Virus record (IMG/VR): IMGVR_UViG_3300031227_006615
Coordinates: 1 to 23,172 of that record
Length of the DNA: 23,172 bases
DNA from: a virus
Reading direction: 5' to 3' (one strand)
Each line of letters opens with the position of its first letter. Position 1 is the first letter of the stretch. The position numbers were made by a program, and so were the translations under genes. This document shows, piece after piece, positions 3,008 through 22,525 of the stretch. The notes under the pieces were generated by a model that made no database searches, was not told the DNA's origin, and worked only from the letters and a program-made list of their open reading frames with translations.

Positions 3008-3795
3008 ATGTAATAGAGTTATGTGGGGGGATAGGAAATCAAATGTTTCAGTACGCTTTTGGGCGAACTCAGCAGGAAAATGGCATAGAGGTAAAGTATA
3101 GTACAAGGTGGTATAGGAAGATGCAAAATCCACCACGTCCTTATAGATTAGATAAATTTCATACTGACATAAAACATTGCCTTTTTTTACATCAGCATAC
3201 CATTAGAGAGAAGCATAGGTTTGATATAAGATATTTAAGAACAAGCGACTGTAATTTTAAAGGGTATTGGCAATACTTGGATTATTTTAAAGGGATTTTG
3301 GATACCTTACAGAATGAATTTTATGTTCAGAAAAAATACTATACTCCAGAATTTGAGAGGCTGAGAGCACAAATTATAAAAAATCCTTCTGTATCTCTTC
3401 ATGTGAGGAGAGGGGATTACGTAAATCGTAAAGGGTTTGGGGCCCTTCCATTGTCTTATTATTTTAAGGCTTTAGAAAAGATAGATAAGGACGTGACTGT
3501 GTATGTATTTAGTGACGATATACCGTGGTGTAAGTCTGTTTTTAAAACAGATTATTTTTCACGGAAATTTATATTTGTTCATTTAGAAGATTATTTGGAT
3601 TTTGAATTGATGCGGGTATGTGATTCTCATATTCTAGCAAACAGTACATTCGGATATTTGGCTGCAATTTTAGATGATGCCCCTGAAAAAATAGTAGTTT
3701 GTCCTCCGGGGTGGTTAGTAATTGGGGGAATCCCAACTGAAGATAGAGACAAAAATATACCTAAACATTGGATAAAAATAGAAGATTATGTATGA
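3004..3795 (+). CDS. Alpha-1,2-fucosyltransferase (GT11 family)
   Basis: A 263-residue enzyme transferring L-fucose from GDP-fucose, usually to galactose in alpha-1,2 linkage. The GT11 signatures are clear. GGIGNQMFQYAF at residues 8-19 is the N-terminal motif. HVRRGDY at 133-139 is the GDP-fucose phosphate-binding motif with the essential arginine. NSTFGYLAA from N213 corresponds to the family's third motif, often NSTFSWWAA. Length is close to the usual 270-300. The start at 3004 is preferred over an in-frame ATG at 2983 because it makes the ATGA junction with the previous gene and puts the GT11 motif at the N-terminus. Gmd and Fcl, which make its donor, are encoded further along the same island. 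The acceptor is unknown. The third motif has Gly-Tyr where many relatives have Ser-Trp. Confidence 0.88.
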   Translation: MNVIELCGGIGNQMFQYAFGRTQQENGIEVKYSTRWYRKMQNPPRPYRLDKFHTDIKHCLFLHQHTIREKHRFDIRYLRTSDCNFKGYWQYLDYFKGILDTLQNEFYVQKKYYTPEFERLRAQIIKNPSVSLHVRRGDYVNRKGFGALPLSYYFKALEKIDKDVTVYVFSDDIPWCKSVFKTDYFSRKFIFVHLEDYLDFELMRVCDSHILANSTFGYLAAILDDAPEKIVVCPPGWLVIGGIPTEDRDKNIPKHWIKIEDYV

Positions 3796-4537
3796 TGTAT
3801 TAATTCCATTAGCAGAAAAGGATTTTAACAAATTTAGGTTTGCTTACGATTCTATTGTAAAATATTTATCAGGGTTTGCAGATGTTCATTGCATCTCCCC
3901 TGTACCATTTCCGAAACATTTGAAGATACAGGGTGTTTTGTATCATTTGGATAAGGATGTTATAGATTTTGATTTTAGTGTATTTAAGGGGGGGATAAAG
4001 AACAGAACAGGCTGGTATAGGCAGCAGTTTATCGAATTATTTCAAGAGGTGACAAGGGATGATTATTTAGTGTCTGACTCGGATAACATATACACCAAAA
4101 AGATTGATGTGTACCGAAAAGGAAAACCTCTCTTTTTATTAGGAGAAGATCAAAACCACGGTCCTTATTTTAGATTGACCGAGAAGTTATTTGGTTTTGG
4201 CAGAGAGTATCCGTTTTCGTTTATCAATGAGATAATGTTGTTTAAAAGGCCTATTATTAAAGAGCTGGTAGCTTCCACAGGATTAACTAATGAAGGTTTC
4301 TTTCAGTTGGTTGCAGCGGAGTTAAATAGAACCCAGGAAAATAGTGGGATGGCTCAGTATGAGATATATGGTAATTATGTTACAAAATATCACCCAAAGT
4401 TATACGGGTACGAGTATCTTACTTTTATTAATAAAAACAAGCACAGGGAGTGGACTGACAGTGAGATTCAGAAAGAACTTGATAAATATAGGGATTCTAA
4501 ATATTCAATGATAAAAATGCACTCATGGACGGGATAG
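3788..4537 (+). CDS. DUF6492-like glycosyltransferase
   Basis: A 249-residue soluble protein resembling the DUF6492 group of GT-A-fold glycosyltransferases found in sugar loci. It opens with YDVLIPLAEKDF, the typical first strand. It has RTGWYRQQFIEL (about 78-89), a conserved helix of the group, then a DSD metal/nucleotide-sugar motif at 97-99 within YLVSDSDNIY, and a FSFINEIMLFKR block near 142-153. No membrane segment is present. It overlaps the GT11 gene by 8 bases and the next gene by 13. Sugar donor and acceptor cannot be read from sequence. Confidence 0.7.
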   Translation: MYDVLIPLAEKDFNKFRFAYDSIVKYLSGFADVHCISPVPFPKHLKIQGVLYHLDKDVIDFDFSVFKGGIKNRTGWYRQQFIELFQEVTRDDYLVSDSDNIYTKKIDVYRKGKPLFLLGEDQNHGPYFRLTEKLFGFGREYPFSFINEIMLFKRPIIKELVASTGLTNEGFFQLVAAELNRTQENSGMAQYEIYGNYVTKYHPKLYGYEYLTFINKNKHREWTDSEIQKELDKYRDSKYSMIKMHSWTG

Positions 4538-5421
4538 TTTTATTTCATAGTGGTAAAGAATTACCGGTATATCTTAAATATGCATTTAAGCAGATTAGGA
4601 TTTTTAATCCTTTTGTTACTGTTTATTTCTTAACAGATACACATTTATTAGGAAACCCTATTTTTCTTAAATATAATGTGCTTGCAGTAGATAAGGATTT
4701 ATTTTATTCTGATAAGGTGGGACAGTTAGCTTCTTTATGCACAAATCCAACGGATCATTTTTGGACTATTACAACAACTCGTTTGGTGTATATTGAGAAT
4801 TTTTTGAAAAAATATAACTTAACAAATGTTTATCATTTTGAAAATGATATTTTATTGTATTGCCCATTAGAAGAACATCATGAGAGGTTTCAGAGGTTGT
4901 ATTCTTATTTGGCAATAACTCCGGGGGGACCTGACAGAAATATGACGGGGTTTTTATACATTAAGAATTCAGATGCATTATCTTTAATGACTCAGTTTTT
5001 TATAGACTTGCGAAAAGCTCATACATTAGAGGAATTAAAAGCAAAGTATAAAACGGATATGGTTCACGAGATGTCTTTAATGAAAATGTATGAGGTAGAA
5101 AAAGGAGAGGGGTATTTGAGTTATCTTCCAATATTACCTTTTGGGGAATATGCAAAGTTATATGATGTATTTAATTCTATATTTGACCCTGCATCCTGGG
5201 GGCAATTTGTGGGGGGAGCATCTACTGGTATTCCAGGGGCAAAAGGACCTGATCATTATATAGGGCAGGTATTAATAGAACATCCTGAGTATAGTGTTAT
5301 TTGGAAAGAAGACGATAAAGGGAGAAAAATACCGTATTTTAAATATGAACATAACGAGGTGAAGATAAATAATTTACATATACATTCTAAGAATTTACAT
5401 AAATATATGAGTTATGATTGA
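4525..5421 (+). CDS. Putative GT-A glycosyltransferase
   Basis: A 298-residue soluble protein. The N-terminal part has alternating beta strands (IVLFHSGKELPVYLKYAFKQIR, then VTVYFLTD), and ENDILLY at 106-112 looks like the DxD-type motif at the end of a GT-A nucleotide-binding half. An HEMSLMKMYE segment (about 178-187) and a late histidine-rich NNLHIHSKNLHKY (near 283-295) are marks I associate with glycosyltransferases of bacterial polysaccharide loci, where the late His often binds the metal or diphosphate. No named family is certain. It is translationally coupled to both neighbours. Confidence 0.6.
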   Translation: MDGIVLFHSGKELPVYLKYAFKQIRIFNPFVTVYFLTDTHLLGNPIFLKYNVLAVDKDLFYSDKVGQLASLCTNPTDHFWTITTTRLVYIENFLKKYNLTNVYHFENDILLYCPLEEHHERFQRLYSYLAITPGGPDRNMTGFLYIKNSDALSLMTQFFIDLRKAHTLEELKAKYKTDMVHEMSLMKMYEVEKGEGYLSYLPILPFGEYAKLYDVFNSIFDPASWGQFVGGASTGIPGAKGPDHYIGQVLIEHPEYSVIWKEDDKGRKIPYFKYEHNEVKINNLHIHSKNLHKYMSYD

Positions 5422-6733
5422 TTTAGATACTAATTGGCCTGGGGAATTGTTACCTTACGAAAGGTATAAGTTATTTAATTGGATCTTGGACACTAAGCCA
5501 AAGAATATATTAGAGGTGGGTACCGGTGGAGGCGGATCAACACATGCTATGTCAGAAGCTATTAAACAATTAAATATACCTTCTATTTTATATACCTGTG
5601 ACCCGGAGAGTGGTTTATCTGAGGAGTTTTTTAAAGAATACCCATTTGTTGATTTTTATAAAGTAAAATCTCATATCCTAATACAGGACATTTTAATAAC
5701 GAAACTCGTTGATATTGATTTTATATTATTTGATGGTTCTAATGAACCTGATGAAGCATTGAATGAGTTACTAGTATTGGAAAAACATATTAAGAGTGGC
5801 ACTTATTTTTGTATGCACGATTGGGAGTTTACAAAAAGGGGCTTTGACAGGCAAACAACAACCAAGGCATTGACAATAAGACCTTATATAGAGCAGTCTG
5901 AGAGTTGGGAAAAGGTGGAGGTTTTGAGCGGACTACAGAAAAACAGTGATTACAATACGGATGAGTTTGATTCTGTTGGTTTATGTTTATACCGGTTTAA
6001 GAGGAATAAAATTTCATTAGCAATAACAAGTTTTAATAGGAGTGATATGACAATACGTTCATTCACCCAAGTTTTAGATAATCCTTTAATAGATGAGATT
6101 ATAATAGTGGACGATCACTCTGATGTTAATATATTTATGAAATTGTGGACTCTTCTTGATGATTTAGATAATGAGAAAATACAGCTGCACAGGAATCAGG
6201 TAAACCTGAAACCATTGAGGAATAAGCATGAAGCGGTAAAAAGGTGCCGAAATGATTGGGTGATACTATTAGATTCTGATAATGTAATAGATAACACTTA
6301 TGTTAAGGCAGTTAGCAAATTAAATAAATTTGCCAACACCATCTATTGCCCAGGATTAACATATAGATTGGACGGAAGTGAAATGTGGGATTGGAGACCT
6401 TTTAATCATTATATAGATAAAAAGGAAACTGTGAAACATATAGATAACGCTTTGTTCCAAACTTTATTGAATACCGGTAATTATTTTTGTAACAGGAAAA
6501 AATATATAGATGTTTTAGAACATGTCGTTATTGACGAGTCTTTAGCTTTTAATGATGCTTTATATTACTCTTATTTATGGTTGTTGAGTGGAGGTAAACT
6601 AAAAGTAGTAAATAGCCTCCATTATATTCATTTTCAGCATGGTGGAGGTGAAGGGGGTAGTTGGTTTGCAAATAATATTAACGAATGTACTTCTGTTATG
6701 GATAAACTTAAACGGAAAATTAAAAATTGGTAG
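5414..6733 (+). CDS. Bifunctional methyltransferase-GT2 glycosyltransferase
   Basis: A 439-residue fusion. Residues 1-195 form a class I SAM-dependent methyltransferase-like domain, with motif I NILEVGTGGGGST at 31-43, an acidic TCDPESGL turn and an MHDWEF motif near 134-139. This resembles Methyltransf_24 / cephalosporin-hydroxylase-like proteins. Residues from about 199 form a GT2 glycosyltransferase: first strand KISLAITSFNRSDM, nucleotide-binding VDDHS (D233-D234) and the LLDSDN metal motif with D287 and D289. Such fusions often add a sugar and cap or decorate it. No break or frameshift separates the domains. It overlaps the preceding gene by 8 bases and ends 2 bases before the preferred start of the next. 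Which sugar it adds or methylates is unknown. Confidence 0.72.
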   Translation: MIDLDTNWPGELLPYERYKLFNWILDTKPKNILEVGTGGGGSTHAMSEAIKQLNIPSILYTCDPESGLSEEFFKEYPFVDFYKVKSHILIQDILITKLVDIDFILFDGSNEPDEALNELLVLEKHIKSGTYFCMHDWEFTKRGFDRQTTTKALTIRPYIEQSESWEKVEVLSGLQKNSDYNTDEFDSVGLCLYRFKRNKISLAITSFNRSDMTIRSFTQVLDNPLIDEIIIVDDHSDVNIFMKLWTLLDDLDNEKIQLHRNQVNLKPLRNKHEAVKRCRNDWVILLDSDNVIDNTYVKAVSKLNKFANTIYCPGLTYRLDGSEMWDWRPFNHYIDKKETVKHIDNALFQTLLNTGNYFCNRKKYIDVLEHVVIDESLAFNDALYYSYLWLLSGGKLKVVNSLHYIHFQHGGGEGGSWFANNINECTSVMDKLKRKIKNW

Positions 6734-6735
6734 AT

Positions 6736-7608
6736 ATGGATTTTATACAAGGTGAATTATTTCCACAAGTAGCAGATTTTATATATGCTCCGCAGATTAA
6801 GAAAGCAGATGATTATGACAAGACTGCTTGTACTGTTGATTGGAATGAATTAAAGGATGTTAATGTGATATACACTCATACTATGTATGTAGCAAAATTG
6901 TTATATATTATAAAGCATTTTAAGCAAAAATTTATTATTATCAGCCATAATAGTGACTGCAGGGTAGAAAAACGAGGTATAGTTACAACCATGGGAAATA
7001 GCATAATGAAAAGTGTAGAGCCTTGTCCCATACCGGGTAATGTAATCAAATGGTATTCTACAAATGTAAATATGGCTCATCCTAAATTAGTACCCATACC
7101 TATTGGGGTTGAGAATCAAAGATGGCAGGGGAACCCATCTAAAAAATTACAAATGCTTGAAAAAGTAAAGGAACCAAGAGCATATAAAAATCTTCTTTAT
7201 ATAAATCACAGCATAGGAACAAATGTCAAACAAAGGAAAGAGCCTTATGAGTTATTTGAGGGAAAATCATGGGTTACTGCGGTAAGAGGACATAATGGAG
7301 TAAACTTTGCCGGTTATATAGATGACATATATAATCATAAATTTACAATTTGCCCAGAGGGGAATGGAACTGATACTCATAGGACGTGGGAATGTCTTTA
7401 TGTGGGATCTATTCCTATCCTGAAGAGGCATCCCAACTTTCGATTCTATACTGATCTGCCAATTTGTTTTGTAGATGCTTGGTCGGAGGTGACAAGTAGG
7501 TTTTTAAATAAGGAGTATAAGAGGATAAGCAATGCTACATGGAACTTAGATAAACTTAATTTTAGTTACTGGAACAATAAAATATTAAGTGATGTCGATA
7601 AGCAATAA
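6736..7608 (+). CDS. Exostosin/GT47-like glycosyltransferase
   Basis: A 290-residue soluble protein with a GT-B-like C-terminal half. The block starting at F203 (FTICPEGNGTDTHRTWE, then CLYVGSIPIL) matches the exostosin-like pattern 'F.lcP.G.g.ds.R..Ea...G.iPVi', which binds the nucleotide sugar. An internal LVPIPIGVENQRW segment (about 113-125) is also seen in bacterial relatives. The frame also contains a TTG at 6727, which would overlap the previous gene by 7 bases; the ATG at 6736 is preferred as an ordinary start two bases after the previous stop. Known exostosin-type enzymes transfer glucuronic acid, GlcNAc, galactose, xylose or arabinose; the donor here is unknown. A GT10-like fucosyltransferase is a less likely alternative. 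Confidence 0.62.
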   Translation: MDFIQGELFPQVADFIYAPQIKKADDYDKTACTVDWNELKDVNVIYTHTMYVAKLLYIIKHFKQKFIIISHNSDCRVEKRGIVTTMGNSIMKSVEPCPIPGNVIKWYSTNVNMAHPKLVPIPIGVENQRWQGNPSKKLQMLEKVKEPRAYKNLLYINHSIGTNVKQRKEPYELFEGKSWVTAVRGHNGVNFAGYIDDIYNHKFTICPEGNGTDTHRTWECLYVGSIPILKRHPNFRFYTDLPICFVDAWSEVTSRFLNKEYKRISNATWNLDKLNFSYWNNKILSDVDKQ

Positions 7609-8236
7609 AAATAAGATTTGGGTCCAGATTGGGACGAATAATGGGAACGATGACTTTAATCGGCTGGTGAAACAATCTGACCCAACTATGGTGCTTTTAA
7701 TTGAACCCAATACATTAAAAAATACAGAGATTATTGAGAATTACACAGGGGTGAGTAACACGCACATAGAAAATGTGATTATAACAAATACAGATGAAAA
7801 AGTATCAACAATAGTTATACCTAAGAATAATCAAGAAAATAATACAGCTATAAATGGTGTAAGATATGATGATGCACATTACAGTTTGTTACCGATGGAT
7901 GATTGGGGGGACGTATTCACTTCAATTAAAACACAAAGCACAACGTTTAATGCTTTATGTAAAAAATATAGGATTACAAACGTTCATTATTTGCAGATCG
8001 ACACAGAAGGATACGACGTAGAAATCTTAAAGTCTATTGATTTTAAAAAGATTAATATTGATGTTATTAAATACGAGAACTGGAAATTTTCAGAAGCTTG
8101 TTTTACTAGATATGGGGAGAAGGCTAAATTATATGGAATAAATGGAATAGAGGCTGCAGCGGTATTATTAGAGGGTTTAGGATATGATGTGCGCGATTGG
8201 GGAGAGAACTCAGTTGCTATAAAAAGAGAAGTCTAA
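7592..8236 (+). CDS. FkbM-family SAM-dependent methyltransferase
   Basis: A 214-residue FkbM-type methyltransferase. The SAM-binding motif I is VQIGTNNGND at 11-20, and an acidic IEPN turn follows near 36-39. The characteristic FkbM segment LQIDTEGYDVEILKSID starts at L134, with D137, E139 and D142. FkbM-type enzymes methylate hydroxyls of sugars or polyketides, and they are frequent in surface-glycan loci and phages, where they cap or block chain ends. A GTG at 7589 lies in frame just before the ATG at 7592; the ATG is preferred. It overlaps the previous gene by 17 bases and the next by one (TAATG). The methylated position is unknown. Confidence 0.82.
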   Translation: MSISNKNKIWVQIGTNNGNDDFNRLVKQSDPTMVLLIEPNTLKNTEIIENYTGVSNTHIENVIITNTDEKVSTIVIPKNNQENNTAINGVRYDDAHYSLLPMDDWGDVFTSIKTQSTTFNALCKKYRITNVHYLQIDTEGYDVEILKSIDFKKINIDVIKYENWKFSEACFTRYGEKAKLYGINGIEAAAVLLEGLGYDVRDWGENSVAIKREV

Positions 8237-8910
8237 TGAAAGAATTATTATTACATACTCATTACGGATTCGGAGATTATGTCATATGTTATGGGATGAT
8301 TAAAGAATTAGCTAAAGAACAGGACCTTGTGACTTTATTTGTTCAGCCACATCGTTCAAAGTTGCATATTGATAATGTCAGGAGATTATATAGCAGTATA
8401 AAAAAGGTGCAGATTACAGAGAACCCCCCAGAATTCTGTGATGGTGTTGTGTATGTGGGAGAAGGGTTTAATCCGGAAGATAATATACAATTCCCAAAGT
8501 TTTTTTATCAGCAGATGAAGGTTCCGTTAGGATTAATGTGGCAGAATTTTTATTTTAAAAGAGATATAAAAAAAGAGAAAGAAATTTATTATGATATATT
8601 AGGGTTAAAAGATAATGAAGAGTATATTTTTCTGCATGATGATCCTGTGAGAGATTTTATAATTGATAGAAAGCACATCAACCCAAATATTAAAATTATC
8701 CATTTGGTTGAGTTAGAAGATATAAGTATTTTAGATACTCTTTATTTAGTTGAGAAATCTAAAGAGGTTCATATGTATACTACTGGATTAGCGTCGTTTA
8801 TAGATCAAATGGGTATTAAACACAATAGTTTAAATTTACACCTGTATATCAGGTCAGCACCAACAGACCAGCCAATATTATTGTTGGATTGGAATATAAT
8901 TAATAAATAG
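8236..8910 (+). CDS. Putative GT-B-fold glycosyltransferase (GT9-like)
   Basis: A 224-residue soluble protein. The N-terminus LLLHTHYGFGDYVICYGMIK (about 4-23) resembles the glycine-rich first loop of GT9 heptosyltransferases, where 'GxGD' precedes a helix. Alternating beta strands and helices continue (LVTLFVQPHR, then KIIHLVELEDISILDTLYLVEKSKEV), suggesting a Rossmann-like second half that bears a serine/threonine-rich YTTGLASF loop. It is short for GT9 (about 320-350), so this is either a compact GT-B protein or a nucleotide-sugar-binding relative. An upstream in-frame start at 8197 is rejected because 8236 gives a one-base coupled junction and begins right at the first beta strand. Function is inferred from neighbours; the family call is tentative. 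Confidence 0.5.
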   Translation: MKELLLHTHYGFGDYVICYGMIKELAKEQDLVTLFVQPHRSKLHIDNVRRLYSSIKKVQITENPPEFCDGVVYVGEGFNPEDNIQFPKFFYQQMKVPLGLMWQNFYFKRDIKKEKEIYYDILGLKDNEEYIFLHDDPVRDFIIDRKHINPNIKIIHLVELEDISILDTLYLVEKSKEVHMYTTGLASFIDQMGIKHNSLNLHLYIRSAPTDQPILLLDWNIINK

Positions 8911-8912
8911 GT

Positions 8913-9674
8913 ATGTTAGAGAAATATACTTTGATATGGTCGTTTCGAAACAGATTTGATGTATTACAAACATCAATTTTTACTGCAGATAAGCTCACTC
9001 CCAAAGAGGTTGAGTTTTGTTTAGTTGATGCTGCATCTAATGAGGATACGATCAGACAGTTACGAGAATACTGCAATACAATTACTGACAGAAAAATACG
9101 AATATGTGAAAGTTCATATCGTTCTAGTTTATCTGAAGCTTGGAATTTAGGAATGATGTTAACAGAAAACCGATACGCAATATTCAGTAGTTCAGATGTT
9201 ATCTTTACTTCTAGTGAGTGGTTTACAAAATTAAAATCGCACCGGGAGCAAACAGGGTCTCAATATATTCTTATAGGGAACCATGCAGTTTTTTTAATTG
9301 ATAAAAAGGTGTTACCAAAGATGGGTTGGTTTGATGAAGAATTTGGTATTGGTGCCCATTTTGATTGTGACTATATGATAAAAGCGTCGGAGAGTGGCGT
9401 ACAATTAACAAATCTTGGAGTTCCCGGTCTTTTTATACATCAAGGGGATGATGCTGATGAAGGAATAAAAAGGGGAACAACAGAATGTCCTGACAGATTA
9501 CCATTTAATACTTTAGAAAATGAAATCTATTTTAAATCAAAGTGGAGCAGTGATTGGCCGGGATGGAAAAATGATACGGCTCATCCAAACCATCCACCAA
9601 CAAATATAACCCAGGCCAAAAGATTAAAGCCAGAAATAGACCCACATCCAATTTATACAAAAAAATGCAAATGA
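8913..9674 (+). CDS. GT2-family glycosyltransferase
   Basis: A 253-residue GT-A/GT2-like protein. It opens YTLIWSFRNRFDVLQTSI, and a CLVDAASNEDT segment stands where most GT2 enzymes have VDDxS. LSEAWNLGM (about 72-80) is the usual donor-binding helix. IFSSSDVIF has only D95 where a DxD is normally found. GWFDEEFGIGAHFDCDYMIKA (about 142-162) matches the GT2 acceptor-side 'GxFDExF...EDxD' region. The C-terminus is a 40-residue proline/histidine-rich tail without a clear fold. The substituted DxD may mean altered metal use. It starts 2 bases after the previous stop and overlaps the next gene as ATGA. Confidence 0.68.
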   Translation: MLEKYTLIWSFRNRFDVLQTSIFTADKLTPKEVEFCLVDAASNEDTIRQLREYCNTITDRKIRICESSYRSSLSEAWNLGMMLTENRYAIFSSSDVIFTSSEWFTKLKSHREQTGSQYILIGNHAVFLIDKKVLPKMGWFDEEFGIGAHFDCDYMIKASESGVQLTNLGVPGLFIHQGDDADEGIKRGTTECPDRLPFNTLENEIYFKSKWSSDWPGWKNDTAHPNHPPTNITQAKRLKPEIDPHPIYTKKCK

Positions 9675-10423
9675 AAATACTTTTATTGGGACATCGCGGT
9701 TATTTAGGATCTTTTTTATACCAGTACTTATCAGTTGATATTTTATCTGAAAGAAATGTGTATGATAATGGAAATAGATACGACTATGTTATTAATTGTA
9801 TTGGTAGACCGAGTGTTGAGTATTGCGAAAGTCATATACTTGAAACTAATTATAGTAATTGGTTGGCGGTAAAAGATATTATTAAATACTACCCAGACGC
9901 TAAAATTATTAATTTTTCAAGTTATTACGTTTATGATGATAAAGGGTTATGCAGTGAGACTTCTAAAACGACTGCTAAATATGCGTATATGCGTCAGAAT
10001 TTAAATGCTGAAAAAATAATCGAGTATGGTGTAACCTTTCGGTTGGGTAAATTATTCGGGAATAAAAAACAAGGGCAAGATACAGTGGTAGACCACATTT
10101 TAAAAAACGATGATTTGGTTTTAGATTCTATTTTGTTTAATCCAACCAGTTTACAGCAGGTGTTAAAGATTGTTAAGCACGAGTTGAATAGAAATCACAT
10201 AAGTGGGGTGTGTAACCTGGCAAATTCAGGGATTACCTCCCATTATGAATTTGGTGTTTTTATTAATGAATTGCTTGGGACAAACAAACACATCACTAAA
10301 ATTAAAAAGATGGGGAGGGTATTTCATAATTACGGTAGATTTTTGATGGATGTATCTTTATTGAACAGCATCTGTCCATTGACTGATTGGAAAACAGATT
10401 TTAAAAACTATATATCATGCTAA
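9671..10423 (+). CDS. SDR / RmlD-like protein with altered catalytic motif
   Basis: A 250-residue extended short-chain dehydrogenase-like protein, similar in layout to dTDP-4-dehydrorhamnose reductase (RmlD) and small NAD-dependent epimerases. The dinucleotide-binding motif is GHRGYLG (G7, G10, G13). VINCIGRPSVEYCE corresponds to the 'NAAA' strand, and INFSSYYVYDDKG to the catalytic serine/YVY region. Where the YxxxK pair is expected, the sequence is YAYMRQN: Y104 is followed by R108 and Y106 by N110, so the usual lysine is missing. It may be a non-canonical reductase or an inactive sugar-nucleotide-binding protein. An ATG at 9665 is in frame, but 9671 makes the ATGA junction and begins just before the Rossmann strand. 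Length is a little short for RmlD (about 290-300). Confidence 0.65.
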   Translation: MKILLLGHRGYLGSFLYQYLSVDILSERNVYDNGNRYDYVINCIGRPSVEYCESHILETNYSNWLAVKDIIKYYPDAKIINFSSYYVYDDKGLCSETSKTTAKYAYMRQNLNAEKIIEYGVTFRLGKLFGNKKQGQDTVVDHILKNDDLVLDSILFNPTSLQQVLKIVKHELNRNHISGVCNLANSGITSHYEFGVFINELLGTNKHITKIKKMGRVFHNYGRFLMDVSLLNSICPLTDWKTDFKNYISC

Positions 10424-10671
10424 GTATCGGAGATTTGATAGATAAGTTAGTAATTGAAAATATAAAGCTCTTCACGTTACGGGAGAGACTACATACGGAA
10501 CAATTAAGTGACAAGGAAGGAACTAAACTATATAATAAAGTATTGGCTCTTAATGAAAATAGGACAATTATTTGTGACCGGTTGGATGAAAAAGTAAAAA
10601 ATGTTATTTCCGGAAAAGAGAAGAATGTGATTTTAAAAAAAATTAGAACCTATCATGAGTACAAAGGGTAA
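10417..10671 (+). CDS. Small helical protein, paralogue of the 12152 gene
   Basis: An 84-residue protein, mostly helical and charged. Its N-terminus SIGDLIDKLVIENIKLFTL matches TFGELVDRLSIINIKLFNL of the protein encoded at 12152-12430, so the two are paralogues. They lie on either side of the RfbH-type gene, with one more small gene between. The '[ST]hG[DE]LhDKLxIxxIKL' pattern resembles the start of DUF6165-type small proteins found beside sugar genes, but I am not sure of that family link. No catalytic motif, signal or membrane segment is present. A binding or accessory role to neighbouring enzymes is inference only. It overlaps the previous gene by 7 bases and the next by 17. Confidence 0.62.
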   Translation: MLSIGDLIDKLVIENIKLFTLRERLHTEQLSDKEGTKLYNKVLALNENRTIICDRLDEKVKNVISGKEKNVILKKIRTYHEYKG

Positions 10672-10864
10672 GAAATTTAGTGAATTGGTTATTGAATTAA
10701 CTGAAACGTGGATGGAGTGGATGGCTAAAAATAAATTAGCTTGTTCTTCAAATATCACCTATACCCTTCGGAGAACATATTCAAAGGAATGTGAAGTATT
10801 GATTGATCGGGAGTATGAAATTGTATCAGAATTAGACGCATTTTTAAAAAATAAAAATGGATAA
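10655..10864 (+). CDS. Small protein of unknown function
   Basis: A 69-residue, mainly helical protein starting inside the end of the previous gene (17-base overlap) and overlapping the RfbH-type gene by 8 bases. It has a FSELVIELTETWMEWMAKN helix and a C-terminal REYEIVSELDAFLKN helix, and two cysteines. I do not recognise it. It is kept because it lies in the same coupled run with overlaps like its neighbours, and it fills the only gap between them. It could be a partner of the 84-residue protein upstream. Confidence that it is translated is moderate. Confidence 0.5.
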   Translation: MSTKGKKFSELVIELTETWMEWMAKNKLACSSNITYTLRRTYSKECEVLIDREYEIVSELDAFLKNKNG

Positions 10865-12158
10865 GTTTGAACTGGAATATAAAATTAAGGCATTAATGGG
10901 AGACTGGGTTAAATTAAATAACAGTCACCACATTAATAAAATACGTTATACTGGTCCCTGTTTAGATGTTGAAGAGTATGAGGGTATGTTAGATGCTATT
11001 TTTAATAATTGGTGGTCAGGTGGGAAATACACAATTAAAGCCGAACAATTACTAGCCGAATTATCTGACAGAAATAAAGGGTTGTTGGCTAATTCCGGAA
11101 GTTCTGCAAATTTATTATTAATGGCTGCAGCTAAGGAATTGTATTTTAAAGATGGGGATAAAATATTAACTCTGTCATGTGGATTCCCTACAACTGTAAA
11201 TCCAATAATACAGACTAGATTAGTCCCTGTGTTTGTGGATATTGATTTAGATACACTTAGTTTATTGCCAGAGACGTTGGAAAATGCGTTAAAAGCAGAC
11301 CCCGAAATCAAAGGGGTATTTATTGCAAATACATTAGGGTTTAAATCTCAGATAAATGAATTACTTGATATTTCCAGAAGGGCTAATGTTTTAGTATTTT
11401 TTGATAACTGTGACGCATACGGAACAATGTATAAGTCTCGTCCAATACAAGCTTATGGAAAAGCCAGTACGTCCAGTTTTTATGTTGCACACCATATTAC
11501 TATGGGTGAGGGTGGGGGAATAGTAACAAATGACGATGAATTATTTGGGGTTATGCGAGGTTTAAGAAACTGGGGGAAATATTGTTCATCTGATAAATGC
11601 TGCATACGTTCTGAAAATCCGGAAGCTTTTTGCCCGACACAAAAACTGACAAAAAATTCTAACTTACCAAAGGATTATATGGTTAATTATCAGTTTGAGT
11701 GGTTGGGGTATAATTTAAAACCGCTTGAGTTACAGTCTGCTATTTTATATGAACAGTTAAAAAAATTAAATACCTTTACCAAAATTAGAAAAGATAATTA
11801 TAGAAAATTATTTAATTACTTTAAAAGTATTCCTTATGTTAAGACGTGGGAAATTGACGATGACGTGTCCCCATTTTCTTTTCCATTTTTAATAAATAAA
11901 GACGCTCCATTTACTAGGAAGCATTTAATGGATCATTATACAAGGAATAAAATTGAGTGTAGAATGTTGTTTGGCGGGAATTTAATGAAGCATCCTGCAT
12001 ATGCAAATAAGAAATATTATTGGGGGGTAATAGGTAACCATAAAAACGCGGATTTAATTTTAGATACTTTTTTGATGTTAGGTGTGTCTCAAATATTGAA
12101 TGAAGAAGATATAGATAAAGTTATTGAAGTAACAACTAAATTTATAAAACAATGGTAA
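10857..12158 (+). CDS. RfbH-type PMP-dependent sugar 3-dehydratase
   Basis: A 433-residue protein of the DegT/DnrJ/EryC1/StrS fold, closest by pattern and length to RfbH/DdhC (CDP-4-keto-6-deoxyglucose-3-dehydratase, E1, about 437). Marks are NSGSSANLLLMAA, CGFPTTVNPIIQ, DNCDAYGT with PLP-ring Asp at D186, AHHITMGEGG with H212-H213, and RMLFGGNLMKHPAY near the end. The usual PLP-lysine is replaced by histidine (H213), the hallmark of 3-dehydratases (RfbH, ColD) rather than aminotransferases. Cysteines C243, C248, C249 and C259 lie where E1 binds a [2Fe-2S] cluster. E1 needs a ferredoxin-type reductase partner (E3), and the CDP-glucose genes are also needed; none is in the window. Gmd downstream could instead provide GDP-4-keto-6-deoxymannose. 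The product would be a 3,6-dideoxy sugar precursor; which nucleotide it uses is unknown. Confidence 0.8.
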   Translation: MDKFELEYKIKALMGDWVKLNNSHHINKIRYTGPCLDVEEYEGMLDAIFNNWWSGGKYTIKAEQLLAELSDRNKGLLANSGSSANLLLMAAAKELYFKDGDKILTLSCGFPTTVNPIIQTRLVPVFVDIDLDTLSLLPETLENALKADPEIKGVFIANTLGFKSQINELLDISRRANVLVFFDNCDAYGTMYKSRPIQAYGKASTSSFYVAHHITMGEGGGIVTNDDELFGVMRGLRNWGKYCSSDKCCIRSENPEAFCPTQKLTKNSNLPKDYMVNYQFEWLGYNLKPLELQSAILYEQLKKLNTFTKIRKDNYRKLFNYFKSIPYVKTWEIDDDVSPFSFPFLINKDAPFTRKHLMDHYTRNKIECRMLFGGNLMKHPAYANKKYYWGVIGNHKNADLILDTFLMLGVSQILNEEDIDKVIEVTTKFIKQW

Positions 12159-12430
12159 GTGATTTAGAATTAGTGACATTTGGGGAGTTGGTTGACAGGT
12201 TGTCTATCATCAATATTAAGCTTTTTAATCTTTTAGATAAAACTGCTGAACTTGATAAGATAGAGAATAAATCTAAAAAGGATATAGATTTGATTGTTAA
12301 ATTAAGTGGGGATAATATACGCTTGGCAACCCAAAGAAGTTGTTTGAAATCTGCAATAGATAAAAAGTTAAACATTGCTATTAAAAAAGGCGGGTCTGAA
12401 ATTTTAGATGAAGTTAAAAGTTATAAATAA
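12152..12430 (+). CDS. Small helical protein, paralogue of the 10417 gene
   Basis: A 92-residue charged, helical protein. Residues from about 9 (TFGELVDRLSIINIKLFNL) align with the start of the protein at 10417, sharing the GxLxDxLxIxNIKLFxL pattern. Both also have a second helix with a conserved arginine region (ENRTIICDRL against DNIRLATQRS). The C-terminal halves diverge. It overlaps the RfbH-type gene by 7 bases and ends 6 bases before the methyltransferase gene. No catalytic motif or membrane segment is present. Role unknown; it may be an accessory subunit or regulator of sugar enzymes. Confidence 0.62.
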   Translation: MVSDLELVTFGELVDRLSIINIKLFNLLDKTAELDKIENKSKKDIDLIVKLSGDNIRLATQRSCLKSAIDKKLNIAIKKGGSEILDEVKSYK

Positions 12431-12436
12431 AAAGAT

Positions 12437-12958
12437 ATGGAACATTTTTATACAGGAATTACAGGTTGGTTTTCATATCCTCACTTATATGCGGATATGG
12501 TAAATAAATTTCCTTCGGGGAGTCACTTTGTTGAGGTTGGTAGTTATGAAGGTTGTTCACTTGCTTATTTAATTGTAGAGATAATAAATGCAAAAAAAGA
12601 CATAAAAGTGACTGCCGTGGACTCATTTGCCCCCATATTTGGTGCGAATGAATCTACATTTCACAATAATATGAAGCCTGTTCAAGATAAGTTTGATTTA
12701 ATAATAGGGCAAAGCTGGGTTACTGCTGATATGTTTGAGGATAAGTCGTTGGACTTTGTATTTATAGATGCGGATCATGTTTATGAAAGTGTAAAGAAGG
12801 ATATAATAGCATGGCTTCCAAAGGTAAAGTCAGGTGGGGTGCTTGCTGGACATGATTATCCTGCTTTTATAGGTGTTAAGCAAGTAGTGGACGAAATGTT
12901 TGGTGATAAGCATGATAGAAAATATGCAGGTGAGCTTTGTTGGTATGTACCAATTTAA
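12437..12958 (+). CDS. Class I SAM-dependent methyltransferase (Methyltransf_24-like)
   Basis: A 173-residue single-domain methyltransferase-like protein. Motif I is HFVEVGSYEGCSLAYL (30-45). A VTAVDSFAP segment carries the acidic residue that holds the SAM ribose. DFVFIDADHVYESVKKDI is the post-motif typical of Methyltransf_24, and SGGVLAGHDYPA follows, with the histidine-aspartate pair often involved in metal binding in this group. It is compact but complete. Relatives methylate sugars or small molecules, or are annotated as class I MTases in polysaccharide loci. It begins 6 bases after the previous stop. The substrate is unknown. Confidence 0.75.
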   Translation: MEHFYTGITGWFSYPHLYADMVNKFPSGSHFVEVGSYEGCSLAYLIVEIINAKKDIKVTAVDSFAPIFGANESTFHNNMKPVQDKFDLIIGQSWVTADMFEDKSLDFVFIDADHVYESVKKDIIAWLPKVKSGGVLAGHDYPAFIGVKQVVDEMFGDKHDRKYAGELCWYVPI

Positions 12959-12970
12959 AAATAGAGAATT

Positions 12971-13750
12971 ATGATATCAGTTGTAACAGCGTATTATAAC
13001 AGAAAAAGATTGTTCCTTGAAACATTAAGGTCAATAGCTAAATCAGCTTATAAAGATTTTGAGGTTATTGTTGTAGATGATGCAAGTGACGAAGAGGAAC
13101 GAGTGGAAGATTTACAGTCAGAATTTTCATTTTTAAAAGTGGTTAGAGTAGAGAAAGAAGATAAATGGTATAATAATTCTTGCATGCCTTATAATGCGGG
13201 TATTGTTAAAGCATCTGGGGACATCATTATGTTGCAGAATCCAGAGTGTTGCCACATACATGATGTGTTAAGTCATGTGGTTAATACAGTCGATGATTCT
13301 AATTATGTTTCAATGTCTACTTATGCAATTAATGAGAAGTTAGGGAAAGTATTTTTATCGGAGGGGATTGACAAGAAAGTTTTTTTTAATGCTTTACCAC
13401 AACGATGTAATGCCAATTATAATGGATGGTATAATCATTCAAAATATAATCCAACCCACTATCATTTTTGTGCTGCCCTCACAAAGAATAATATAGATAA
13501 GCTTGGTGGGTTTGATGAAAGATTTGCAAAAGGGATTGCGTTTGAAGACAATGAGATTCTTTATCGGATTGATCGGTTAGGATTAAATAAAATAATTAGT
13601 GATAAGATTTCGGTGGTGCATCAGTGGCACCCAAAGGTATTTACTCTTGAAAATCCAGAACACCTTATATTATATAAGTTAAATGAGGCTTTAATGGAAC
13701 AAATAAAGAATGAACCAATTATTAAAGTAAATAATAGTTATTATGAGTAA
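12971..13750 (+). CDS. GT2-family glycosyltransferase
   Basis: A 259-residue GT2 enzyme. It begins ISVVTAYYNRKRLFLETLRS, then VIVVDDASDEEE with D36-D37, the nucleotide-binding aspartates. An MPYNAGIVKASGDIIMLQNPECCH segment follows, in which NPE stands in place of the normal DxD after the GD strand. GGFDERFAKGIAFEDNE (about 178-194) carries the acceptor-side acidic pair. The last 60 residues carry a VVHQWHP segment seen in other GT2 proteins of this type. The N-terminal half is canonical, so activity is likely, although the metal motif is unusual. It overlaps the gmd-like gene by 8 bases. Confidence 0.78.
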   Translation: MISVVTAYYNRKRLFLETLRSIAKSAYKDFEVIVVDDASDEEERVEDLQSEFSFLKVVRVEKEDKWYNNSCMPYNAGIVKASGDIIMLQNPECCHIHDVLSHVVNTVDDSNYVSMSTYAINEKLGKVFLSEGIDKKVFFNALPQRCNANYNGWYNHSKYNPTHYHFCAALTKNNIDKLGGFDERFAKGIAFEDNEILYRIDRLGLNKIISDKISVVHQWHPKVFTLENPEHLILYKLNEALMEQIKNEPIIKVNNSYYE

Positions 13751-14714
13751 AAGAATTTTTATAACGGGAATCAATGGGCAAGACGGGTCATATTTAGCTG
13801 AATATATGCTTGAACTTGGACATGAGGTGCATGGTCTTATCAGAAGGAATTCTGTAGAAGCTAACCAATCAAAAAGACTAGTTCATTTAGGGGGCAAGCT
13901 TCATTTGTATTACGGGAATATGTTAGATGCCTATTCGTTGGAAAAGGCGCTGGAAGAGGCACAACCCGACTACGTGTTTCACCTGGCGGCTCAATCACAG
14001 GTAAGAGTTAGTTTTGATATCCCTGAATATACAATAGATGTGAATGGAACAGGCACTTTGCGTTTACTCAATGCATGTAGACGGATATGTCCCAAAGCTC
14101 ACATATATAATGCATCCAGTAGTGAGATATTTGGTGCTTCTGTGGATGCTGATGGATTTCAAAGAGAAACAACTACAATATCTCCAATATCTCCGTATGG
14201 TGTAGGTAAAGTAATGGCACATAATTTAATAATGCATTATCGTAGAGCCTATGGCATGTATACAGCTAATGGAATTTTATTTAACCACGAGTCCCCAAGA
14301 AGAAGTGTTGATTTTGTAACTCGAAAAATAATTAAAGGTGTTGTTGCTATTCATCGTGGGCAACAAGATAAATTGGAATTAGGGAATCTTGATTCATTTA
14401 GGGATTGGGGGCACTCTAAAGATTACGTTAGGGCAATGTGGTTAATAGTAAATCATGTAAAACCAATGGAGTTTGTAATAGCTTCAGGAAAAGCTTATTC
14501 TGTGAGGGAGCTGTGTAAATTTGTATTTGCTCATTTCAAATTAAATTATGAAGATTACGTTGTCCAGAATCCTCAATTTATGCGTCCGGAAGAAGTTCCT
14601 TATTTAAAAGGGGATGCAACTAAAGCAAGAACAATATTAGGGTGGGAACCTACATATACATTTGAATCTTTACTGGAAGAAATGATTGAAGCACGTATGA
14701 AAGAAAATGATTAA
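13743..14714 (+). CDS. gmd: GDP-mannose 4,6-dehydratase
   Basis: A 323-residue extended SDR that converts GDP-D-mannose to GDP-4-keto-6-deoxy-D-mannose with bound NADP. Motifs: TGINGQDGSYLAEYML with G9, G12, G15; HEVHGLIRRNS with the NADP phosphate-binding arginines; HLAAQSQVRVSFDIPEYT; ASSSEIFG with S126 and E128; and SPYGVGK with Y152 and K156. NHESPRRSVDFVTRKI, a strongly conserved Gmd block, follows. It is a little shorter than most Gmd proteins (about 340-370), mainly at the C-terminus. Fcl lies two genes downstream and the GT11 fucosyltransferase upstream, so the natural role is supplying GDP-L-fucose in the cytoplasm from host GDP-mannose. The intermediate may also be shared with the RfbH-type enzyme. 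Confidence 0.93.
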   Translation: MSKRIFITGINGQDGSYLAEYMLELGHEVHGLIRRNSVEANQSKRLVHLGGKLHLYYGNMLDAYSLEKALEEAQPDYVFHLAAQSQVRVSFDIPEYTIDVNGTGTLRLLNACRRICPKAHIYNASSSEIFGASVDADGFQRETTTISPISPYGVGKVMAHNLIMHYRRAYGMYTANGILFNHESPRRSVDFVTRKIIKGVVAIHRGQQDKLELGNLDSFRDWGHSKDYVRAMWLIVNHVKPMEFVIASGKAYSVRELCKFVFAHFKLNYEDYVVQNPQFMRPEEVPYLKGDATKARTILGWEPTYTFESLLEEMIEARMKEND

Positions 14715-15096
14715 TAAATCTTACATAATAGCGCCTCCATGTTCGGGGAAGAGTACTTTTATAAATTCATATGAAAATGAATATAAGATACTCCGTCTTT
14801 TTGATGAACAACTTTTACCATCTTATCTTTGTAATTTAGGAGGAAATTGTATTCTTGATCAGGAAAAATATATTTATGCTATTGTTTTGATTAGGGAAGC
14901 TCAATTACGAAAACAAATTGCTAAAAGAAAAAAACAAGACCCCGGAAATGCTTGGACGGAAGAGTTAATTTTTGATCATCCAACACAGGGTTATTATGCA
15001 GTAAAACAAACAGCAAAAGAACACAACATTCCAGTATTTAAGACATTTGAAGATGCTTCAAATTTTATAATAGTTAAAATGATTGAAAATGAATAA
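14707..15096 (+). CDS. Small P-loop NTPase/kinase-like protein
   Basis: A 129-residue protein with an N-terminal P-loop-like motif APPCSGKST (residues 9-17), preceded by a beta strand KSYIIA. The first glycine of the Walker A is alanine, but the GKST end is intact. The C-terminal half has a helix rich in basic residues (IREAQLRKQIAKRKKQ) and a final NIPVFKTFEDASNFI strand-helix. The size suggests a compact nucleotide-binding protein, possibly a degenerate small-molecule kinase. It sits between gmd and fcl, overlapping both by 8 bases. Its substrate is unknown; a link to fucose or mannose activation is only inference. Confidence 0.6.
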   Translation: MINKSYIIAPPCSGKSTFINSYENEYKILRLFDEQLLPSYLCNLGGNCILDQEKYIYAIVLIREAQLRKQIAKRKKQDPGNAWTEELIFDHPTQGYYAVKQTAKEHNIPVFKTFEDASNFIIVKMIENE

Positions 15097-16030
15097 AGAC
15101 AGTAAAATATTCGTAACCGGTCATAAAGGTTTGGTAGGTTCAGCAGTAGCCAGAGAACTTACTAGGCAAGGATATACTAATATCTTAACAGCAGATAAAA
15201 CTGAATATGATTTATTATATCAGAATCAAGTAGTTTATTATTTTGATGATAACAAACCAGAATATGTAATTAATTGTGCAGCAAAGGTAGGGGGGATAAA
15301 TGCAAACAACACAAAGAGTGCAGAATTTATAACTGAAAATCTAATCATACAAAACAATATAATTACTACTTCACATTATTTTAAGGTTAAAAAATTAATG
15401 TTTCTTGGAAGTTCATGTATATATCCGAAACTTTGTTCACAGCCTATTAAAGAAGAATATCTATTAACATCAGCACTGGAGGAAACAAATATTGGGTATG
15501 CAGTCGCTAAGATTGCCGGATTAACACAATGTCGTATGTACCGTAAACAATATAATGATAATTTTATATCTGCTATGCCTACAAATCTTTATGGAATTAA
15601 TGATAACTTTGACCTTCAAAATGGACATGTATTACCGTCTTTATTGAGAAAGTTCCACGTGGCGAAAATAAACAACTTTTCAAAAGTGGAATTATGGGGT
15701 ACAGGTTCCCCAAAAAGAGAGTTCTTATTTGTAGATGATTTAGCTGAGGCTTTAATATTCTTAATGAATAATTATAACGATGAACAGCACGTTAATATTG
15801 GTACAGGAGGTGACGTGACTATTAAAAAACTTGCACATATAGTTAAAGACATCGTAGGATTTGAAGGAGATATAGTATGGAATAAGTTTTACCCTAATGG
15901 CACTCCACAAAAACTACTTGATGTTAGTAAAATAAACAATTTAGGGTGGGAAGCAAAAACCTCTTTGGAAGAAGGTTTAGATATAACATATAAGTGGTTT
16001 ATTGAAAATTATAATAATATTAGAAAATGA
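15089..16030 (+). CDS. fcl: GDP-L-fucose synthase
   Basis: A 313-residue bifunctional epimerase/reductase (Fcl, WcaG) that turns GDP-4-keto-6-deoxymannose into GDP-L-fucose with NADPH. Motifs: TGHKGLVGSAV with G11, G14, G17; CAAKVGGINANN; FLGSSCIYPK with the catalytic serine and cysteine; GYAVAKIAG with Y137 and K141; and PTNLYGINDNFDLQNGHVLPSLLRKFH with the conserved histidine after NG. Length matches family members (about 310-320). A TTG at 15083 is in frame, but ATG 15089 is the ordinary start. It overlaps the P-loop gene by 8 bases and the next gene as ATGA. With Gmd and the GT11 enzyme it completes GDP-fucose synthesis and use. Confidence 0.92.
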   Translation: MNKDSKIFVTGHKGLVGSAVARELTRQGYTNILTADKTEYDLLYQNQVVYYFDDNKPEYVINCAAKVGGINANNTKSAEFITENLIIQNNIITTSHYFKVKKLMFLGSSCIYPKLCSQPIKEEYLLTSALEETNIGYAVAKIAGLTQCRMYRKQYNDNFISAMPTNLYGINDNFDLQNGHVLPSLLRKFHVAKINNFSKVELWGTGSPKREFLFVDDLAEALIFLMNNYNDEQHVNIGTGGDVTIKKLAHIVKDIVGFEGDIVWNKFYPNGTPQKLLDVSKINNLGWEAKTSLEEGLDITYKWFIENYNNIRK

Positions 16031-17313
16031 ATGAACGACCTACAATAGTATTAGTATTAAAAAACGGAAAAGGTTTTGGTTTTCGTGATGTGGAATTAAT
16101 TGCAAAGCACATCAATGGTAAATGGAAAGCTATAACTCGTCCACGTATCATTTGTCTTTGGGATCAAATAACCGAGCCTTGTGATTTAGGTAGTATTGAA
16201 CTTTTACCTCTTACAAACACTTGGCCGGGGACCTGGTCGAGAATGATTCTTTATTCTCCACAAATGGAACAATATAAACCATTTTTATACGTGGATTTAG
16301 ATACAGCAGTGATTCAGTCTTTAGAAAATATATTTGCTTTAATAACTGATCCTTCTAGGTTCATTACATTAGAAGACTTTTGGAATAAAAGAAAGTTAGC
16401 AACACCACTAGTTTGGTTTCCTGCTGATTGTGAAAAGACTAAAAAAGTATGGAAAGAGTGGAAGGGAGAAGCAATTGGATTTAGAATGGACCACTTTTTA
16501 CGCAAGCATGTCGCTCCTGATTTGTACTGGCAACAATTAACCACTACTATATATGATTTTAAACCCAGAAACAATGTTTTATTAGATGAGCTTCCAGCAG
16601 ATGCCACATTAGTTTGTTTCCATGGAAAGCCCAGAATATTTGATATAGTGGAAGCATCTATGAGTTTGGCTTGGGTACAGGACTATGTAAATACTGAATA
16701 CGAGGAGGTTCTTAAAAAGAAAGTTACTGTTATTATCCCTTATAAAAAAGATCGCGGTTGGTTACGGGATGCGATTGATAGTATTCCTGCAGATGTTCAA
16801 TTAATAGTGAGTCAGGGAGAAGGTAACTGGCCAGCTAACTTTAATAAAGTATTGGGTCAGGCAGAAGGGGATTATATTAAATTCCTTCATGAGGACGATA
16901 TGTTACTTCCAAATTGCATAGAAGATTCTGTAAAAGCAATAGAAGAGCAGAATGTGGACTTTATACATGGAAACGCTGTAGAGCTATTTCAAGGCACTGA
17001 GAGGCTACGCCACTACAAACCGAAGGTAACACACCCTACTGTGGAGGATCTATTGGCACGTAACGTTATTCATTGCCCTACTTTGATGTATCGCAGGGAA
17101 GTCTTTGAGAAGGTAGGGACTTTTGATGAGACTTTAAATAATCAGGAGGAATATGAATTTAACCTACGTTGTTTAAAAGCTGGATTAAAGATAGGGTATT
17201 GTGATTCGTTTTTAGCAGTTTATAGAAGACATTCTGCTCAGAAAATAAAAACAATTACAAAGACAGAGATTAGAAAAGAAAAGGAATTGGTTAATAAAAA
17301 ATATATAGCATGA
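16027..17313 (+). CDS. Two-domain glycosyltransferase (GT8-like plus GT2)
   Basis: A 428-residue fusion. Residues 1-225 form a GT-A-like domain with LYVDLDTAVI (D90, D92), the metal-binding pair, and a late CFHGKPRIFDI segment (about 198-208), where the histidine would bind the metal as in GT8-type enzymes. The family resembles phage/bacterial proteins of this kind rather than classical GT8. Residues from about 232 form a GT2 domain: VTVIIPYKKDRGWLRDAI, IKFLHEDDMLLP with H288, D290 and D291, and a GTFDETLNNQEEYEFNLRC acceptor-side region. The two active sites suggest two consecutive sugar additions by one polypeptide. The start is coupled to fcl by ATGA, and the end overlaps the sulfotransferase-like gene as ATGA. 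Confidence 0.75.
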   Translation: MNERPTIVLVLKNGKGFGFRDVELIAKHINGKWKAITRPRIICLWDQITEPCDLGSIELLPLTNTWPGTWSRMILYSPQMEQYKPFLYVDLDTAVIQSLENIFALITDPSRFITLEDFWNKRKLATPLVWFPADCEKTKKVWKEWKGEAIGFRMDHFLRKHVAPDLYWQQLTTTIYDFKPRNNVLLDELPADATLVCFHGKPRIFDIVEASMSLAWVQDYVNTEYEEVLKKKVTVIIPYKKDRGWLRDAIDSIPADVQLIVSQGEGNWPANFNKVLGQAEGDYIKFLHEDDMLLPNCIEDSVKAIEEQNVDFIHGNAVELFQGTERLRHYKPKVTHPTVEDLLARNVIHCPTLMYRREVFEKVGTFDETLNNQEEYEFNLRCLKAGLKIGYCDSFLAVYRRHSAQKIKTITKTEIRKEKELVNKKYIA

Positions 17314-18011
17314 TAAATCAGGCTCCCATATTAATTACAGGTATTCCTCGAAGCGGGGCTTCTATGATTGCTGCAGCTATTAATGTGTGTGGAGCATTTG
17401 CTGGGGATATGTCAAAAAGAGGAAGATACTGTAATGATAGGGTTCGGGAAGAAATGGTTAAGCCTTATTTAGAAGGAATGGGGTGTGATAGAGAAGGCTA
17501 CTACCCTTTACCAAGTGATGTAACCATACCATTAGGTTGGAAGGATAAGATAGATCAAATAATAGTTGAAGAGGGGCACAAAGGCGGTTCTTGGATGTAC
17601 AAGGATTCCAGATTAGCATTGACTTGGGAGATTTGGAATAAAGCCTATAAAAATGCTAAATGGGTAATTGTTCGTAGACGTACAGGCGATATTCTTCATT
17701 CTTGTATTGAAACGAAGTATATGCATAGATTTGAGGGGGAAAGAACTCGTAAAGCTGTTGGTGCTAAAGATGAAAGAGAAGGATGGCTTTGGATGGTGCA
17801 TCAATATGAGAATAGATTTGTTAATATGATACAAGAAGGATTAAATTGTAAACAAATATGGCCTGAGCGAATGGTAAAAGGAGATTACGAGCAGATATAT
17901 GAAGTTTGTAATTGGCTAGGTTTAGATTGGAACGAAGAGGCTTTCAATTTCATTAATCCTTTATTATGGGGAGGCAAAAACCAAAAAAGAAAGGACATAA
18001 ATAATGGCTGA
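17310..18011 (+). CDS. Sulfotransferase-like P-loop protein
   Basis: A 233-residue soluble protein of the sulfotransferase superfamily. ITGIPRSGASMIAAAI has the 5'-phosphosulfate-binding loop TGIPRSGAS at residues 10-18. WVIVRRRTGDILHSC from W118 fits the 3'-phosphate-binding motif with an arginine (R122/R123) and S131. A late GLDWNEEAFNFINPLLW (near 206-222) resembles the 'LGL.....' end of such proteins. Sulfotransferases move sulfate from PAPS to sugar hydroxyls; a phage version would depend on host PAPS. Many phage proteins of this fold are not proven sulfotransferases, so a related kinase-like role is possible. It is the last sugar-type gene before structural genes resume, and overlaps the next gene by 8 bases. 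Confidence 0.68.
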   Translation: MINQAPILITGIPRSGASMIAAAINVCGAFAGDMSKRGRYCNDRVREEMVKPYLEGMGCDREGYYPLPSDVTIPLGWKDKIDQIIVEEGHKGGSWMYKDSRLALTWEIWNKAYKNAKWVIVRRRTGDILHSCIETKYMHRFEGERTRKAVGAKDEREGWLWMVHQYENRFVNMIQEGLNCKQIWPERMVKGDYEQIYEVCNWLGLDWNEEAFNFINPLLWGGKNQKRKDINNG

Positions 18012-20280: not shown

Positions 20281-20658
20281 ATGGCAGCAAGAACAACAGC
20301 ATCAGAGGTATTACAGATATTGGACGGATGCACGGTGTCCAGTATAGTGGTAGATACCTTTATTGGGACAGCTAGTAGATTATTAGATTCTGTGTTTAGT
20401 TCAGATTCATCCATGACTGCTGTCCAATTACGAGATATTGAAACATGGCTTACGGCACATTTAATAGCCAGTACACTTCACAGACAAACCAGTGAAGAAC
20501 AGGTAGACGGAGCATCTGTAAAATATACCGGTTATTGGAGTAAGGATTTAGAATCCACTTCATACGGACAGATGGTAAAGGTAATAGATACGTCAGGAAA
20601 GATGGCAAATGTAGGTAAAAAATTAGCTAGCATGAAAGCTATAACAAGTTTTGACTAA
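20281..20658 (+). CDS. Head-tail connector protein (gp6-like)
   Basis: A 125-residue, mostly helical protein fitting the head-tail adaptor (HK97 gp6-like) type. An N-terminal helical half (TASEVLQILDG, then SRLLDSVF) is followed by VQLRDIETWLTAHLIASTLHRQTSEEQVDGASVKYTG. The latter 'W..AH......R....E..GGASVKY.G' block is common to this connector family. The C-terminal TSYGQMVKVIDTSGKMANVGKK completes the usual pattern. Such proteins form a dodecameric or tridecameric ring under the portal. An AAGAAAGGG leader lies just before ATG. The stop TAA shares its last base with the next ATG. After the island, the structural order resumes here. Confidence 0.78.
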   Translation: MAARTTASEVLQILDGCTVSSIVVDTFIGTASRLLDSVFSSDSSMTAVQLRDIETWLTAHLIASTLHRQTSEEQVDGASVKYTGYWSKDLESTSYGQMVKVIDTSGKMANVGKKLASMKAITSFD

Positions 20659-21601: not shown

Positions 21602-21603
21602 AG

Positions 21604-22002: not shown

Positions 22003-22008
22003 AAAAAG

Positions 22009-22015
22009 AAGGAGG
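22009..22015 (+). promoter_or_regulatory. Ribosome binding site of the tail tube gene
   Basis: AAGGAGG lies five bases before the ATG at 22021, within an A-rich leader. This is a strong SD, as expected for a high-copy tail protein. Confidence 0.75.
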
Positions 22016-22020
22016 CATGT

Positions 22021-22458: not shown

Positions 22459-22467
22459 ACATATTTT

Positions 22468-22500: not shown

Positions 22501-22525
22501 TAACAAACAATTAAAATCACTAATC

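Follow-up and report, generated by a model that had tools for sequence, protein, structure and literature searches.

The window analysed here, that is the whole 23,172 bases of the virus record IMGVR_UViG_3300031227_006615, encodes an E1-type (RfbH-like) 3-dehydrase in a phage sugar cassette. With modest confidence the protein is read as a PMP-dependent phage enzyme, probably carrying a [2Fe-2S] cluster, that would use a CDP- or dTDP-4-keto-6-deoxyhexose made by the host together with host electrons. If this reading is right, a rare PMP/Fe-S deoxygenase has a separate branch in phage glycan cassettes, marked by an altered cluster motif, and the branch would form a small natural set for E1-type cluster binding and electron-donor choice.

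Genomic context and family assignment

The sugar cassette covers approximately positions 2312–18011 and is placed between head genes (197–1808; a head decoration and a virion structural protein) and genes of the head–tail connection and tail (approximately 20281–22957). The ORF of the E1-type gene is intact, its translation giving 433 residues with no internal stop, and the minus strand over it is rich in stops.

Table 1. Positions of the features in the window; all genes discussed are on the plus strand.
Feature	Positions	Strand	Basis or remark
Phage head structural protein	711–1808	+	Places the cassette in a phage
Family-11 glycosyltransferase (fucosyltransferase type)	2983–3795	+	Assigned with Gmd and Fcl to a GDP-fucose route
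GT2-type glycosyltransferase	8913–9674	+	5′ of the E1-type gene in 5/5 subfamily members
RmlD-like SDR, candidate 4-keto reductase	9665–10423	+	YxxxN; three relatives have YxxxK
Small conserved protein between reductase and E1-type gene	10417–10671	+	Weak sub-cutoff DUF4254 match
E1-type (RfbH-like) NDP-4-keto-6-deoxyhexose 3-dehydrase, 433 aa	10857–12158	+	Profile, sequence, fold
C185 codon, aligned with E1 cluster ligand C193	11409–11411	+	Alignment, subfamily conservation
H212 codon, at the PLP lysine position (E1 H220)	11490–11492	+	Alignment
Variant cysteine loop C243-X4-C248-C249-X9-C259	11583–11633	+	Sequence, subfamily conservation
Second small related protein, directly 3′ of the E1-type gene	12152–12430	+	Weak sub-cutoff DUF4254 match
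Gmd, GDP-mannose 4,6-dehydratase	13743–14714	+	Assigned to a GDP-fucose route of its own
Fcl, GDP-L-fucose synthase	15083–16030	+	Match to 1bsv

RfbH/E1 (AscC, DdhC) is a PMP- and [2Fe-2S]-dependent CDP-4-keto-6-deoxyglucose 3-dehydrase. Among the NCBIfam profiles, RfbH (NF011936) ranked first for the window protein with 328.8 bits, followed by PseC with 133.7 bits, and in the PDB sequence search E1 (3bcx) reached 210 bits against approximately 160 bits for ColD (2gms). Both searches bear out the RfbH-type dehydratase proposed for this ORF in the earlier note. The profile score misses the curated RfbH cutoff of 423 bits, which counts against the favoured reading; since neither this score nor the exact cysteine spacing of RfbH is matched, the protein is classed as a variant rather than as RfbH proper. 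Literature searches, limited in coverage and weak as evidence, returned no description of phage RfbH-type enzymes.

The AlphaFold model had a mean pLDDT of 88, but only approximately 50 in the cysteine loop, and it is unreliable at residues 243–280, a further point against the reading. The model aligned with E1 (3bb8) from residue 2 onwards over 405 residues (Z 53.0, rmsd 2.0), while the alignment with ColD (Z 47.8) started only at residue 27, and E1 took Foldseek ranks 1–3. The window protein is nearer to E1 than to ColD both in sequence and in fold, and by all that could be tested it appears to work like E1. With E1/AscC/RfbH (DdhC; 3bcx, 3bb8) it shares the fold, the histidine in place of lysine, the N-terminal extension, the C-X57-C pair and another cysteine beyond it. 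It differs from E1 in having approximately 30% identity over the aligned structure and in lacking E3 and CDP-glucose genes in its record. ColD (2gms, 3b8x) belongs to the same superfamily and has the catalytic histidine at the same position, but it is the weaker match and has neither the N-terminal extension nor the cysteine loop, whereas in the window subfamily five cysteines, at the cluster region and the partner site, are invariant.

Catalytic histidine and cysteines

The cysteines of the window protein were located by script at residues 35, 108, 185, 243, 248, 249, 259 and 368 and the histidine pair at 212/213; the aligned region of E1 has cysteines 192, 193, 251, 253, 257 and 261 and histidines 220/221. 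The residue altered in the E1 mutant H220K (3bb8) is the first histidine in the triplet AHH and corresponds in the alignment to H212, and the ColD mutant H188N (3b8x) likewise alters the first histidine of the pair. Therefore the catalytic residue is H212, and not H213 as the earlier note had it.

The cluster ligands of E1, said to have been determined by Agnihotri et al. in 2004, are reportedly C193, C251, C253 and C261. The earlier note had placed C243, C248, C249 and C259 of the window protein at the cluster region, and these positions stand, but it had missed C185 and the loop spacing of E1 is different. C185, within the motif DNCDA, aligns with E1 C193, and the spacing C185-X57-C243 is identical to C193-X57-C251 of E1. 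From the E1 motif C-X57-C-X1-C-X7-C the first pair is retained, while C-X1-C-X7-C is replaced by C-X4-C-C-X9-C; the missing C-X1-C speaks against the favoured reading. All five cysteines (C185, C243, C248, C249 and C259) are invariant in 5/5 subfamily members at 54–66% identity, and C185, C243 and C259 also in 53 viral relatives at 31–62% identity, which at this divergence is more than chance. The four-cysteine motif is present in E1 and SpnQ and absent in ColD (review PMC8987622). By its conserved cysteines the window protein probably binds a [2Fe-2S] cluster.

Relatives and phylogenetic placement

The mixed-alignment scan found at least 576 related stretches in viral contigs, and phage E1-type genes are therefore common. 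The C-X-C after the WG motif was present in 80 of the 84 sequences compared, the exceptions being the window protein and those of the viral contigs L009, L008 and L002; the cellular relatives examined likewise carry C-X-C. L119, with 66% identity the closest relative of the window protein, came from a motif scan, and these five form a subfamily with 54–66% identity. A second motif scan gave the same four contigs again, which makes the subfamily a rare one in this viral collection. Cellular members were sought in 398 Bacillota genomes and plasmids, and the best match among the 398 genomes had 39% identity; a scan of the genome collection with poorly suited peptide patterns gave two distant aminotransferase relatives. 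On these searches, the subfamily would be a small branch, known here from phages only. The common phage E1-type enzymes (e.g. L010, L022 and cyanophage S-H68) are also located in phage glycan cassettes, with no E3-type reductase found in 24 IMG/VR records, but they have kept the C-X-C, lie mostly near an RmlB-like dTDP-glucose dehydratase and have 31–37% identity to the window protein.

The tree was constructed with four subfamily members and two aminotransferase outgroups. The subfamily was monophyletic (support 100) on a long branch, and the best tree placed it on the E1 side of the E1/ColD split (support 94), beside cellular and phage E1 groups. In the AU test a tree with the subfamily joined to ColD was not rejected (p-AU 0.50), a point against the favoured reading, so the placement is not settled by the tree alone. 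The phylogeny with RfbH/DdhC and ColD suggested in the earlier note thus gave the E1 side in the best tree but left the ColD joining standing. Tentatively, and as a possibility to which we give less credence than to the favoured reading, the subfamily might be a deep, phage-only third lineage of 3-dehydrases near the E1/ColD split, with a new cluster set (C185, C243, C248 or C249, and C259), host ferredoxin and host sugar nucleotides.

The tree result would also agree with a ColD-like mode of action, in which the cysteines would hold no working cluster (or another metal) and PMP would be regenerated from glutamate with no reductase. The altered cysteine spacing and the absence of a reductase gene from the records point the same way. 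We nevertheless consider this mode quite unlikely, as none of the five cysteines varies within the subfamily, the C185-X57-C243 pair included, and the phage ColD-type enzymes have no cysteine loop.

Electron supply

Neither a Fer2 nor an FNR-type NAD domain was detected in the five subfamily records (23 kb in the window and 28–108 kb in the relatives). The absence of reductase and CDP-sugar partner genes claimed in the earlier note holds for the 23-kb record, where Fer2 and the FNR-type NAD domain were missing and nothing scored above the cutoff for CDP-glucose 4,6-dehydratase. Also the 24 IMG/VR records had no Fer2, and a ferredoxin was found only in the named cyanophage S-H68. As the viral records are fragments, absence of partner genes refers to the records only. 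At some plasmid loci that carry rfbH together with rfbF and rfbG no E3 is annotated alongside, and at the Sphingomonas rfbH locus a FAD-binding oxidoreductase is adjacent. Since phage E1-type genes ordinarily, and some plasmid rfbH loci as well, are without E3, its absence here is unremarkable.

SpnQ, a relative of E1, runs on ferredoxin or flavodoxin reductase pairs (PMC8987622), and by analogy host ferredoxin or flavodoxin would be the simplest electron supply for the window enzyme. Like SpnQ, which belongs to the dTDP branch, the window protein would be an E1-like 3-dehydrase without a dedicated E3; the likeness to SpnQ is by description only, and the substrate and electron donor are known experimentally for SpnQ while those suggested for the window enzyme are predicted.

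Nucleotide branch

The Gmd that the earlier note had seen near the E1-type gene is indeed encoded 1.6 kb 3′ of it and is canonical, with 347.8 bits to the profile and 295.6 bits to 6gpj. The Fcl is canonical as well (311 bits to 1bsv). Together with the family-11 glycosyltransferase these two make up a predicted GDP-fucose route that is complete in the window, and a comparable fucose gene set has been reported in cyanophage S-SCSM1 (PMC9602691).

The earlier note had considered a move of the E1-type enzyme to the GDP branch, giving a 3,6-dideoxyhexose. In such a route the phage Gmd would supply GDP-4-keto-6-deoxymannose, and the product, a GDP-3,6-dideoxyhexose such as colitose, would be finished by Fcl or by the RmlD-like SDR. 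The window encodes no sugar-nucleotide pathway enzymes of that kind other than Gmd and Fcl, and ColC, the last enzyme to colitose, shares its enzyme class with Fcl. We find this move unlikely, as Gmd is already accounted for by the fucose route, a canonical Gmd was not found with the other four subfamily members, and phages have ColD-type enzymes for the GDP branch. The Gmd profile gave only traces in the L008 and L009 records (13.7 and 15.4 bits), L002 has just a distant Gmd-like SDR (115.5 bits), and L119, checked through the general epimerase family and against the Gmd of the window, showed no close Gmd. Independent sugar routes are mixed in phage cassettes, which makes the presence of Gmd nearby a poor guide to GDP specificity.

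Several phages with an E1-type gene encode a second histidine-bearing enzyme, which is nearer to ColD than to E1 and has no cysteine loop. Four such ColD-type enzymes are located near Gmd- or Fcl-like genes (L068:17600-18781, L047:17561-18739, L044:1045-2211 and L077:1661-2866) and are candidates for phage colitose-type routes. With these separate enzymes, the phage GDP branch appears to have an enzyme of its own. In the fetched flanks of 78 other phage E1-type loci, an RmlB-like gene was present in 55, Gmd in 28 and Fcl in 23; directly adjacent to the E1-type gene were RmlB in 17, Fcl in 4 and Gmd in 2. One phage RmlB-like protein matched dTDP-glucose 4,6-dehydratase with 241.5 bits. The phage E1-type enzymes tend to go with non-GDP branches.

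In the window, L002, L008 and L009 records nothing exceeded the family cutoff for CDP-glucose 4,6-dehydratase, and in the five subfamily records nothing exceeded that for dTDP-glucose 4,6-dehydratase. L002 encodes a homologue of CDP-tyvelose 2-epimerase (208.6 bits to 9rl0), which by its sequence points to CDP. TyvE-like enzymes can be promiscuous (PMC7851689), which counts against the reading. The second option of the earlier note, host CDP-sugars with host ferredoxin, fits better than the GDP branch, considering the lack of an E3-like protein, the precedent of SpnQ and the epimerase homologue of L002. A dTDP route, which that option had left aside, is also live for the window enzyme.

Conserved neighbours and proposed reaction

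The gene order GT2, RmlD-like SDR, small protein and E1-type gene is common to the window, L009, L008 and L119, whereas L002 lacks the RmlD-like gene and has only the other two neighbours. Among the subfamily members, conservation is accordingly 5/5 for GT2 and the small protein and 4/5 for the RmlD-like SDR. When the RmlD-like protein was scanned for as a single protein, no matches were found. A role as C4 reductase is plausible for this SDR. In the window it has kept SSYYVY but carries Asn at the usual YxxxK lysine, which is Lys in three relatives, so the reductase of the window may be inactive; this also counts against the favoured reading. The same Asn could suggest a decaying gene or a module no longer functional in the window phage. 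Decay seems very improbable, as the ORF of the E1-type gene is uninterrupted and five diverged phages have retained the histidine, the cysteines and a large part of the core.

In the favoured reading of an E1-type 3-dehydrase supplied by the host, H212 stands at the PLP lysine position and PMP would form a Schiff base with an NDP-4-keto-6-deoxyhexose, which would most likely be made by the host and carry CDP or dTDP rather than GDP. The PMP-bound sugar would lose its C3 hydroxyl by elimination, and the intermediate would be reduced through a cluster on C185, C243, C248 or C249, and C259, with a ferredoxin or flavodoxin reductase pair of the host supplying the electrons. The RmlD-like reductase and the GT2 transferase could then finish the 3,6-dideoxyhexose and attach it to a glycan of the host surface or the virion.

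The two small proteins next to the E1-type gene are related to each other and flank it both in the window and in relatives. Radical SAM genes are located close 3′ of the E1-type gene in two relatives (L002:11289-12239 and L008:12663-13778). In L002 a sugar nucleotidyltransferase-like domain also appears to be fused to an RpiB-type isomerase (L002:3803-4972). The record OR851175.1 (L005) bears the name Salmonella phage S.Kent 1-2-1, but this contig of 2.6 kb and low coverage carries rfbG, rfbH and an abequose-synthase-like gene and resembles host O-antigen DNA rather than phage.
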